A DNA stretch of 64,000 nucleotides from assembly GCA_916048095.2 (NCBI GenBank), contig OU696579.1, positions 472,001-536,000 of the forward strand, written 5' to 3'. Shown here in pieces: positions 19,402-25,400 of the stretch. Source of the stretch: Sacculina carcini. Lineage: Eukaryota; Arthropoda; Thecostraca; Sacculinidae. Made by a program: the position numbers and the translations under genes. The notes below the pieces were generated by a model. The model had not been told where the DNA came from. It made no database searches and saw only the letters and a program-made list of their open reading frames with translations. Within the stretch, counting starts at the first letter, position 1, and each line of letters starts with the position of its first letter.

Positions 19402-22400
19402 TCACAATGTTCTGATCGCATGCTGCTTCATAATCGACCGCACCATATCCAGGTGACCTGCACACACACACACACACACACACACATACACATTGTGCCG
19501 GAGAATTGCAAGAAATGTTGAGTTTGATGAGTAATTTTCAGTTTGAGTGTTAGCAGCACATGAGAGAAGCACGAATCATTGCACTCAAGTGTTGCTACTC
19601 AACAAAGAACAGCACATTTAACACACGCACACACACCGTGTTTGAGTTGGATGTAGATGGCGAGACGAACGACCAGTGCTGGAACGTCAGCCGTGGCCGG
19701 GTTCATCTGACACGACACAACCACACTGCTACGTCAATATCCAGGCCAATTATCACTGAGATCAGGAGCTGGACAATAAAACTATGTTTCTTCAGTACTA
19801 CGCTCTAAACGCTCTCAACGTGGGTCATACGGCCTCCTTGAAGCCATGGGATTCTTTCGAGGGACCGTAGCACCGAATTTAAAAAGGGGCCACCATATTT
19901 TCCCAAGGACCACGAAAACTGCATGTTGAAACCGTTGATTTCATTCATATTTTCGATGTTGCACATTTCAATCATGTGATGCGCCAATGTCTGTGTGTTC
20001 ACTTCACCTATATGCAAGGTCATGACGTTGTTCTGGTGGTCAGTGGGAATATTCACCGGGGTACATGAGCTCTGGAGGAGTCGTGACGCCACCATCCATG
20101 CGTGTTTGGGACCACAAGGACTTCTAGGAGGGCCACACACTGTTTCTGGGGCCCACAGGGACTCGCATTGTGTTGAAGGGGCACGGCAAGAAAATGGTTG
20201 AGAACCACTGGTTTTAATGATTGAATCACCTGCAGAATGTGCGTGTATAACTAATTTGTTTATCGAGATATTCACTTGAAACGACTTGATTCTGGAACGC
20301 ATAATATCAGCACATCGCTGATTTTACACTGCATTAGTGCCCGTGTTGGTGATAGTTACGGTTTTGAGCAGTTCCCAGGCCTTGTCGAGCATATGTCGTC
20401 GCGTGAACACGACAGCCATGTTGTATTGGACACAAAGTCTGGCCGCAGACACAGTGGCAGGACGCCAGCGCTGTAGCACGGGAGACACGCCCTCTAGCGC
20501 GCCACATTCGCCAGTGTCCGTCGAGTCGTGAGTGAGCAACAGCGGCCTGTGTCGCGAGTCTCCGTCACTCACTGACACACACACATACAAACACGGAACA
20601 AGTGTAGCACATGAAACAAACACACAGTCTAATGAGAGGTAGAAATGATACCTGCTGTTATTTCCATCGCAGAACGTCGACCGAATCAGGGCTACTGGCG
20701 CCGAAATGTCAGCATAGAGACTTTGCCAGCAACTGTTAATATGCTCATTATCTGATACATGTAATATACTAGCGGGCAATTACACAGCGTACAGTTGTAA
20801 CCTGCGGCCATTTGAGTGGTGAGTTGAGCCAGCGCCTGTTCGCCGCGGTCCATCATCAACAGGGCCTCGGCAGAGTAAGAGCGTGCCAGCAGAGAGAGTG
20901 CGGGAGACACGTGCCGCTGCCGGCCCAACTGGTCGGCGCGTTGCAGAGCTAGCAGAGGCTCGTGCAGACACAGGTGCACGTAGCTCAGCGCGGCCAACAC
21001 TGCACACCTGATACTCTGCACCTGAACACAACAGCCACACGATCAACTATCACCATCACTACACTGATGCTGGGCTTATTCAGCGCTGGTGTGGAACATT
21101 AAGAGTTAGTGGATAAAAAACTGAGGAATCAGATATTACAGATCACTGGAACATGTCATGTGCAGTTCTATAAACTCACACAGAACAATTATCAAATGAC
21201 AACATATGGCAGTGATAATGAAATATCTACAGTGATACACCTGATCTACAGTGATACACACCTGATCTACAGTGATACACCTGATCTACAGTGATACACC
21301 TGATCTACAGTGATACACCTGATCTACAGTAATACACCTGATCTACAGTAATACACCTGATCTACAGTAATACACCTGATCTACAGTAATACACCTGATC
21401 TACAGTGATACACCTGATCTACAGTTATACACCTGATCTACAGTGATACACCTGATCTACAGTGATACACCTGATCTACAGTGATACACCTGATCTACAG
21501 TAATACACCTGATCTACAGTAATACACCTGATCTACAGTGATATACCTGATCTACAGTAATACACCTGATCTACAGTGATACACCTGATCTACAGTAATA
21601 CACACCTGATCTACAGTGATACACCTGATCTACAGTGATACACCTGATCTACAGTGATACACCTGATCTACAGTGATACACCTGATCTACAGTAACACAC
21701 CTGATCTACAGTGATACACCTGATCTACAGTAATACACCTGATCTACAGTGATACACCTGATCTACAGTAATACACCTGATCTACAGTAATACACACCTG
21801 ATCTACAGTGATACACCTGATCTACAGTAATACACCTGATCTACAGTGATACACACCTGATCTACAGTGATACACCTGATCTACAGTGATACACCTGATC
21901 TACAGTGATACACCTGATCTACAGTGATACACCTGATCTACAGTGATACACCTGATCTACAGTAATACACCTGATCTACAGTGATACACCTGATCTACAG
22001 TGATACACCTGATCTACAGTGATACACCTGATCTACAGTGATACACCTGATCTACAGTAACACACCTGATCTACAGTGATACACCTGATCTACAGTAATA
22101 CACCTGATCTACAGTAATACACCTGATCTACAGTGATACACCTGATCTACAGTGATACACCTGATCTACAGTGATACACCTGATCTACAGTAATACACCT
22201 GGTCTACAGTAATACACCTGATCTACAGTGATACACCTGATCTACAGTGATACACCTGATCTACAGTGATACACCTGATCTACAGTGATACACCTGATCT
22301 ACAGTAATACACCTGATCTACAGTGATATACCTGATCTACAGTGATACACCTGATCTACAGTAATACACCTGATCTACAGTGATACACCTGATCTACAGT

Positions 22401-25400
22401 AACACACCTGATCTACAGTGATACACCTGATCTACAGTGATATACCTGATCTACAGTGATACACCTGATCTACAGTGATATACCTGATCTACAGTGATAC
22501 ACCTGATCTACAGTGATACACACCTGATCTACAGTAACACACCTGATCTACAGTGATACACCTGATCTACAGTGATACACCTGATCTACAGTGATACACC
22601 TGATCTACAGTGATACACCTGATCTACAGTGATACACCTGATCTACAGTGATACACCTGATCTACAGTGATACACCTGATCTACAGTGATACACCTGATC
22701 TACAGTGATACACCTGATCTACAGTGATATACCTGATCTACAGTAATACACCTGATCTACAGTGATACACCTGATCTACAGTGATACACCTGATCTACAG
22801 TAATACACCTGATCTACAGTGATACACCTGATCTACAGTGATACACCTGATCTACAGTAATACACCTGATCTACAGTGATATACCTGATCTACAGTGATA
22901 CACCTGATCTACAGTAATACACCTGATCTACAGTAATACACCTGATCTACAGTAACACACCTGATCTACAGTGATACACCTGATCTACAGTGATACACCT
23001 GATCTACAGTGATACACACCTGATCTACAGTAATACACCTGATCTACAGTGATACACACCTGATCTACAGTAATACACCTGATCTACAGTGATACACACC
23101 TGATCTACAGTGATACACCTGATCTACAGTGATACACCTGATCTACAGTGATACACCTGATCTACAGTGATACACCTGATCTACAGTGATACACCTGATC
23201 TACAGTGATACACCTGATCTACAGTAACACACCTGATCTACAGTGATACACCTGATCTACAGTGATATACCTGATCTACAGTAATACACCTGATCTACAG
23301 TGATACACCTGATCTACAGTAACACACCTGATCTACAGTGATACACCTGATCTACAGTAATACACCTGATCTACAGTAATACACCTGATCTACAGTGATA
23401 CACCTGATCTACAGTTATACACCTGATCTACAGTGATACACCTGATCTACAGTGATACACCTGATCTACAGTGATACACACCTGATCTACAGTGATACAC
23501 CTGATCTACAGTGATACACCTGATCTACAGTGATACACCTGATCTACAGTGATACACCTGATCTACAGTGATACACACCTGATCTACAGTAATACACCTG
23601 ATCTACAGTGATACACCTGATCTACAGTAACACACCTGATCTACAGTGATACACCTGATCTACAGTGATACACCTGATCTACAGTGATACACCTGATCTA
23701 CAGTGATATACCTGATCTACAGTAATACACCTGATCTACAGTAATACACCTGATCTACAGTAATACACCTGATCTACAGTGATACACCTGATCTACAGTG
23801 ATACACCTGATCTACAGTAATACACACCTGATCTACAGTGACACACCTGATCTACAGTGATACACCTGATCTACAATGATATACCTGATCTACAGTGATA
23901 CACCTGATCTACAGTGATACACCTGATCTACAGTGATACACCTGATCTACAGTGATACACACCTGATCTACAGTGATACACACCTGATCTACAGTAATAC
24001 ACCTGATCTACAGTGATACACCTGATCTACAGTAACACACCTGATCTACAGTGATACACCTGATCTACAGTGACACACCTGATCTACAGTGATACACCTG
24101 ATCTACAATGATATACCTGATCTACAGTGATACACCTGATCTACAGTGATACACCTGATCTACAGTGATACACCTGATCTACAGTGATACACCTGATCTA
24201 CAGTGATACACCTGATCTACAGTAATACACCTGATCTACAGTGATACACCTGATCTACAGTGATACACCTGATGTACAGTAATACACCTGATCTACAGTA
24301 ATACACCTGATCTACAGTGATACACCTGATCTACAGTGATACACCTGATCTACAGTGATACACCTGATCTACAGTGATACACCTGATCTACAGTAATACA
24401 CACCTGATCTACAGTAATACACCTGATCTACAGTGATACACCTGATCTACAGTGATACACCTGATGTACAGTAATACACCTGATCTACAGTAATACACCT
24501 GATCTACAGTGATACACCTGATCTACAGTGATACACCTGATGTACAGTAATACACCTGATCTACAGGAATACACCTGATCTACAGTGATACACCTGATCT
24601 ACAGTAATACACCTGATCTACAGTGATACACCTGATCTACAGTAATACACCTGGTCTGATACACACCTGATCTGCAGTGACGGGGTTGGCGGGCTCAACG
24701 TTGACAGGACATTCTCCCTCGCCGTCCTCGCCGAGAATAAGCCAGGCGTTGCGCAGCGCCAGACCGGCAAACTGCATGGTCGGATTGGGAATTGCGGCCG
24801 ACGTCTCGTCCCGACTGTCGTCAACATTATTAATATTATCACTATTGTTATCATGCCAGTTACACGCAAGTCCAGTGACATGAGAACAGTTCAAGTAATA
24901 TTACCACCCCGCGGTGGCCTCATGTAGGAAAAGCTGCCAAAAGATATTGAGTAAAAGGGTTGGAGAAATTCGAGCACAATCGGGAAGATGACTAATGAAG
25001 AAAGAGACTAATGAAGAATGAGAATGACTACTAATGACTACTAATGAAGAAAGAGACTAAAATAAACAAAAATACTAAATTTAACCAACAGATAAAAGTG
25101 CATGTACACAAACTTGTAACAAACCAAAATCAATTAATAATGTAAATGAAGAATTAATACATATAATAACAATTAGCAGATTAAACTAATAAATAAGTCA
25201 GCACACGTGACATAATCAACTCATATCCTCTACCTGCCTGCCTGCCCACTCTCTCCCACGTCACACGGTGCACTTTCCTCTCTCTCTCTCTCGCCCACTC
25301 TCTCCTACAAATGCACATGTGTCAGTGCATGTCAGTGTATGTACCTGCATTTAGAGTCAGTGTGTGTGTCAGTGTGTTTGTGTACCTGCATTTAGAGTCA

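Follow-up and report, generated by a model that had tools for sequence, protein, structure and literature searches.

Tandem duplications of exon-intron boundaries that resemble minisatellites have been described in amphioxus under the name "mirages" (PMC3087553, from the available parts of the paper). According to the same parts, mirage units in the Adh3 gene measure 10-72 base pairs (bp) and those of the globin mirages BflGb6 and BflGb9 about 150-160 bp, BflGb6 occurs in haplotypes with 6 and 3 units, and mirages carry AG/GT signals in many of their repeats and show length and somatic instability. Further mirage genes, TnC and PGBD5, are named in the accessible text of PMC3902484, and the lancelet data, as far as these portions of both papers go, suggest that regular splicing is undisturbed (PMC3087553, PMC3902484). 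Here we describe an array of the same kind in a stretch of 64,000 nucleotides (nt) from the genome of Sacculina carcini (contig OU696579.1, positions 472,001 to 536,000; called the window below, with coordinates counted from its first base), where the eighth intron of the gene CNOT10, read on the minus strand, consists largely of copies of the junction between exon 8 and intron 8. As in the amphioxus mirages, the unit spans an exon-intron boundary, adjoins the authentic donor, and carries AG/GT, and the 10-72 bp reported in the partial Adh3 account bracket the CNOT10 units of 19, 21, and 41 bp. Unlike the lancelet mirages, the CNOT10 array lies in a crustacean of the barnacle lineage, it runs to ~180 copies against the 6 and 3 units given for BflGb6, and conserved protein sequence supports the direction of copying. 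We consider it probable that the array is a mirage-type minisatellite, seeded at the 5' splice site by duplication of the junction, near-neutral, and accompanied by correct splicing.

No junction-derived arrays in arthropods were found in the literature searched, which covered titles and abstract openings and left many journals outside its coverage. The available portions of the Pollicipes genome paper (PMC8917513) list annotated repeats that are nearly all simple or low-complexity, and the terms "tandem" and "satellite" do not appear in them. As far as these searches show, the CNOT10 array is new in lineage and scale and belongs to a kind of repeat already known as mirages; the additions made here are an arthropod mirage, a very high copy number, a second junction array in intron 7, and an excess of arrays on the donor side of introns. 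The locus provides a clean, polarised example of minisatellite birth, with a founder that is readable in the adjoining exon, where coding constraint has kept it.

An exon-intron junction repeated through CNOT10 intron 8

The intron 8 array occupies positions 21225-24680 of the minus strand (Tandem Repeats Finder, TRF, and unit parse), comprises 13 unit types, and reaches 14 nt into exon 8. TRF reports a period of 19, 180.6 copies, and 94% matches, in agreement with the original prediction from the letters of this DNA, which had described about 180 copies of a 19-bp unit; the end assigned to it then, 24814, is the base at which exon 8 starts, and the array ends at 24680. By the gene model and protein alignments, exon 8 lies at 24667-24814 (minus; phase 0, ending ..EPANPVTADQ) and exon 9 at 20802-21021 (minus), with the first base of intron 8 at 24666 and an intron length of 3645 nt. 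The single array takes up 94% of this intron, starting at the exon 8 donor and adjoining the authentic boundary, and the part of the intron outside it is a stretch of 203 nt with the acceptor TTGTGTTCAG (21022-21224, minus; gene model and TRF).

Between the end of exon 8 and the 3' end of intron 8 there are 180 AG/GT sites. One is the true donor, the other 179 are decoys, and every one reads CAG/GT. The 179 units that these sites delimit are 19 bp long in 164 cases, 21 bp in 14, and 16 bp in one. The commonest, GTGTATCACTGTAGATCAG, accounts for 99/179, and the 21-bp unit GTGTGTATCACTGTAGATCAG for 10/179, plus four with one change. The 16-nt unit, a deletion variant (GTGTGTATCAGACCAG; 24651-24666, minus, by sequence reading and unit parse), is the first in the intron, and the first decoy donor follows right after it, its intron side starting at 24650.

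The presumed founder segment, TCACTGCAGATCAG/GTGTGTA (24660-24680, minus), consists of 14 nt from the exon 8 end and the 7 intron nt that follow them. It matches the 19-bp unit at 17 of 19 positions, as claimed originally, and the commonest 21-bp unit at 20 of 21, the one difference being a change of C to T. An exon 8 end unrelated to the unit had been named beforehand as a finding that would speak against a junction origin; the alignment at 20/21 relates the two. Each unit holds 14 exon nt and 5 or 7 intron nt and thus spans the boundary, and 13 of the last 14 bases of exon 8 match the unit in register, for which uniform-base arithmetic gives a chance of ~1.6e-7. Because the 21-bp unit matches so closely, the apparent G to A change at +5 in the shorter units is better read as the loss of one GT, and the founder is taken as 21 bp since the junction differs from the 21-bp unit by one base and most 19-bp units are without one GT.

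The repeat is confined to this locus. A two-unit 37-mer has 162 matches in the assembly (264.4 Mb, 43 contigs) and 162 in the window at ≤3 mismatches, a limit that would miss diverged relatives; for a repeat such counts may be lower bounds. Among the 100 assembly matches listed, all are on contig C11 inside the array. Since the two counts are equal, a genome-wide satellite family as the source is disfavoured. The only assembly match of exon 8 is exon 8 itself, and no second haplotype was seen in this one assembly.

A second junction-derived array, with a 41-bp unit, lies in intron 7 (25340-25637, minus; TRF and junction test) and reaches 18 nt into exon 7 (25620-25732, minus, gene model; ending ..CACTGACTCCAACTGCAG). 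It contains eight CAG/GTAC sites, true donor included, and seven downstream copies of the junction 20-mer (≤4 mismatches), one of them exact, so that the architecture of intron 8 recurs with a different unit.

It is unlikely that intron 8 itself was gained recently by the tandem duplication of an AGGT segment, a route of intron gain in which tandem AGGT duplicates turn into introns, as described in the available text of PMC4974935. In such introns one segment supplies both AG and GT, and in CNOT10 the unit contains CAG/GT, AG/GT recurs at every unit boundary, and exon 9 opens with a sequence, TGCAGAGTATCAGGTGTG (20998-21021), that resembles the exon 8 junction (24660-24680), perhaps by chance. 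The resemblance of exon 9 is weak, however, with a 3-nt gap and a different reading frame, and 17 of 24113 windows score as high as the exon 9 start or higher; among the 14 matches listed, seven are at an unrelated, higher-scoring locus near 3720-3750, five are exon 9 itself, and two are near 19750. Unlike the AGGT-duplication introns, moreover, the CNOT10 segment spans an existing donor and the acceptor is outside the array.

Decoy donors and the question of function

Tandem alternative 5' splice sites lie close together. The extra sites of CNOT10 intron 8 differ from them in number and range, with 179 placed 16 to about 3430 nt downstream of the true donor. The likeness is that several possible donors follow one exon (PMC2423196, in the portions available). 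The gene model places the true exon 8 donor, CAG/GTGTGT (-3 to +6), at 24661-24669 (minus). Among the 179 decoys, 144 read CAG/GTGTAT, 10 CAG/GTATAT, and 25 CAG/GTGTGT, so that A stands at +5 in 154 and G is kept there in 25. Pairing with the 5' end of U1, calculated as ViennaRNA duplex energy, is -9.6 kcal/mol for the true donor and equally for the 14 decoys that are identical to it over -3 to +8; the remaining 165 pair more weakly, 11 at -7.7 and 154 at -6.7 to -7.2 kcal/mol. The identical decoys span 21254-24406 (minus; offsets converted to window coordinates), with first intron bases at 24403, 23983, 23962, 23827, 23578, 23481, 23099, 23059, 23019, 22523, 21856, 21797, 21605, and 21261, and the nearest of them is 263 nt into the intron. 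By U1 pairing, the claim that each unit keeps a good donor is therefore overstated and only partly right, 165/179 decoys being weaker than the true donor. Fourteen identical decoys and 165 weaker-pairing ones behind one exon make a natural test of 5' splice-site choice.

Use of a decoy had also been predicted to add a stop, and for 178/179 decoys it would, in frame, with the nine codons VCIRPGVLL followed by TAG. The first decoy, at 16 nt, would shift the frame, which then stays open to the end of exon 9. Most intron sequence, if retained, would be expected to bring in a stop.

A functional array, with copied donors that bind U1 and tune the splicing or output of CNOT10, is in our judgement very unlikely. 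The regularity of the units might be taken to favour it, 177 of 178 parsed units beginning with GT and ending with AG (the parse of the exception takes in the first G of the next unit), and so might the G kept at +5 in 25 decoys. Against this, the invariance of the five CAG/GT columns is within chance (0.068; selection not significant), RNA folds of two stretches are unremarkable against shuffles (z-scores of 0.34 and -0.24), and other donors adjoin arrays that are unrelated in sequence; Rfam gives no match in 20700-25700 at gathering thresholds. We find no evidence for the U1 sink or the control of CNOT10 dosage about which the original prediction had speculated.

RNA structure that hides the decoys was considered and rejected: long hairpins are predicted, yet the same two z-scores stand at shuffle level. 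Accessibility does not clearly raise the true donor above the decoys (0.0008 for the donor, 0.0005 for the decoy median), since 31% of the 179 exceed it. In a DNA fold, stability was below that of all 200 shuffles.

Direction of copying and proposed origin

The protein spliced from exons 1-9 (536 amino acids) matches the CNOT10 chains 8fy4_B, 8bfi_B, and 8fy3_B at E ≤7e-78 and 36 database proteins at E ≤0.001, its best named CNOT10 relatives being those of the barnacles Amphibalanus amphitrite (54% identity) and Pollicipes pollicipes (50%), with two further proteins at 55%; a search with a two-exon piece of CNOT10 gave no match. When this protein is aligned with 16 other CNOT10 proteins, the end of exon 8 proves conserved among barnacles, reading VTADQVQ here, ISADQVQ in P0001, VTGDQVQ in P0002, and VTPDQVQ in Amphibalanus (P0003) and Pollicipes (P0004); the longer sequences are EPANPVTADQVQ here, EPANPISADQVQ in P0001, EPANPVTGDQVQ in P0002, and EPANPVTPDQVQ in Amphibalanus and Pollicipes. 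Solved CNOT10 chains align across the exon 8 junction without a gap, and barnacle and insect CNOT10 align gap-free with the residues at the exon 8 end. This makes the exon half of the unit old, conserved coding sequence, and copying therefore ran from the exon into the array. The reverse course, in which an intronic minisatellite pre-existed and the end of exon 8 arose by taking over one unit together with its donor, would equally leave exon end and unit in one register, but it conflicts with the gap-free alignment at the exon 8 end, and the VT-DQ common to Amphibalanus and Pollicipes is hard to square with a one-locus array of this genome; we regard this course as most improbable. The birth of the array from the exon 8/intron 8 junction, which the original prediction had proposed, is well supported by the register, the 20/21 match, the conserved coding half, and the single locus.

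In the origin that we propose, a segment of ~21 bp that straddles the junction (14 exon nt and 7 intron nt) would have been tandemly duplicated, presumably by replication slippage or unequal exchange. The C to T change (TGCAG to TGTAG) would have arisen before the array grew to about 180 units or while it did so, and so would the loss of one GT in most copies (GTGTGTA to GTGTA), in an order that we can only suggest; this loss, leaving A at +5 in most copies, would have weakened U1 pairing. Correct splicing most likely persists, since under exon definition the exon-proximal site would be the first working donor downstream of the acceptor of exon 8, and its U1 duplex energy, equal to or stronger than that of every decoy, would help the correct choice. 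The array itself is probably near-neutral.

Several observations weigh against this account. The array is known from one genome; the true donor is predicted from the gene model, and its exclusive use is presumed. The end of exon 7 is not conserved in the 17-protein alignment, and for intron 7 the anatomy is therefore established and the direction of copying is not; a strict junction 20-mer test finds copies at 2/21 donors, both of them in CNOT10 (introns 7 and 8). Nor are the decoys weak by the standard of this genome, in which we called a reference set of 29 donors (19 from the window, the true exon 8 donor included, and 10 from helicase loci): 18/29 pair with U1 at -6.7 kcal/mol or more weakly, and G stands at +5 in 14/29, which weakens the notion that the decoys are dead because their +5 base is A. 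A matrix of the other 28 donors scores the true donor at 6.60 and the commonest unit at 5.55, with 23/28 real donors below 5.55. Because the typical decoy comes near the true donor in matrix score, strength alone cannot explain the choice, and position after the exon must matter, as the exon-definition model would imply.

Arrays at other donors

The window provides a sample of 19 introns, 10 from CNOT10, eight from a SACM1L-like gene (named by tblastn with the human sequence), and one from what we take, by eye, to be a COPS6-like gene; the helicase subfamilies below were likewise named by eye. TRF arrays make up 51% of the 13482 intronic bases, and 13/19 introns hold an array. The array starts ≤15 nt after the donor in 7/19 introns, whereas random placement within introns gives a mean of 1.03 and reaches 7 in 0/5000 trials; with CNOT10 intron 8 left out the count becomes 6/18 by arithmetic, to which the permutation result does not refer. 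An array ends ≤15 nt from the acceptor in 3/19 introns, all GT-rich. Among the donor-side arrays, some are GT, CA, or GTCT repeats and others have 13-22-bp units without exon bases; that of the SACM1L-like gene at 14756-15291 (TRF and gene model), with an 18/70-bp unit (TCACTCACTCACATTGAC), starts 1 nt into its intron at the donor CAG/GTCACT and fills 92% of it.

Of 30 helicase loci 13 were inspected by eye, and with L030, L032, and L039 dropped for unclear boundaries, ten donors were called. Three of them have an array starting ≤15 nt downstream, compared with 4.0% (540/13653) of the more distant downstream positions within these loci; since these donors were called after the arrays had been seen, the replication is weak. 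The strict 20-mer test finds junction copies at 0/10 of them. At L026 the array contains the donor and includes only ~7 exon-like nt, and the first array detected there begins at 16 nt, one base beyond the 15-nt cut. Five 10-kb stretches of the genome were scanned with TRF only and enter none of these counts.

That arrays merely settle beside donors, because donors need few bases and acceptors a long tract, with an incidental junction match, would fit the 7/19 introns at the donor against 3/19 at the acceptor and the arrays of SACM1L S4, L020, and L031 (GT, CA, or GTCT repeats, or starting inside the intron without exon bases), but it is disfavoured, and extremely unlikely, for introns 7 and 8, where the repeats enter the exons by 18 and 14 nt in register, with the 13/14 match at ~1.6e-7; for the other donor-side arrays this reading may hold. 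As for donors as hot spots of array birth, the small sample gives an intriguing hint. A wider proposal, that donors are birth places of minisatellites genome-wide and seed arrays far oftener than elsewhere in introns, we put forward tentatively and think doubtful; U1-bound nascent RNA, R-loops, or slippage on a GT-rich donor would be candidate causes, and the CNOT10 arrays would then be the clearest, exon-including cases of a process leading from donor to decoy array. Were donor anchoring to hold genome-wide, the origin of minisatellites would be tied to splice sites, and the study of mirages would extend from lancelets to arthropods.

Some arrays elsewhere in the genome are recorded here in their own right. 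The DDX42-like helicase intron at L026:1804-2585 begins with the donor GTTAATAAC, followed by ~11 copies of a 63-67-bp unit in which a pyrimidine tract ending in CATCCAG precedes the same donor sequence, an arrangement that resembles a row of mini-introns. A 24-bp repeat that encodes the conserved CHRIGQ motif and includes AGGT (TRF, 2.5 copies, 84%) lies in a SNF2-like exon at L032:1476-1535, on the minus strand of the locus; situated at a probable exon end, it is perhaps an early stage of junction duplication. A 2.3-kb array at L043:7714-10000 has TCACTGTATCACTG as its unit, which looks like part of the unit in CNOT10, and words like TGTGTCAGTG are common to several arrays of the genome.

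Gene model and neighbouring sequences

The CNOT10 exon model combines open frames with splice sites, the human sequence serving as a guide, and places exons 1-6 on the minus strand at 30214-30426, 29037-29187, 28185-28321, 27817-27930, 26889-27147, and 26357-26610. Two long open frames beside CNOT10, both named by eye, resemble the polyprotein of a long terminal repeat (LTR) retrotransposon (36665-39883, minus) and a reverse transcriptase of the long interspersed nuclear element (LINE) type (30483-32180, plus). Elsewhere in the assembly, a tandem cluster at G000:C4:2415039-2463537 holds 16 similar-scoring Helicase_C matches ~3.2 kb apart, 13 of them in open frames of 769 codons.

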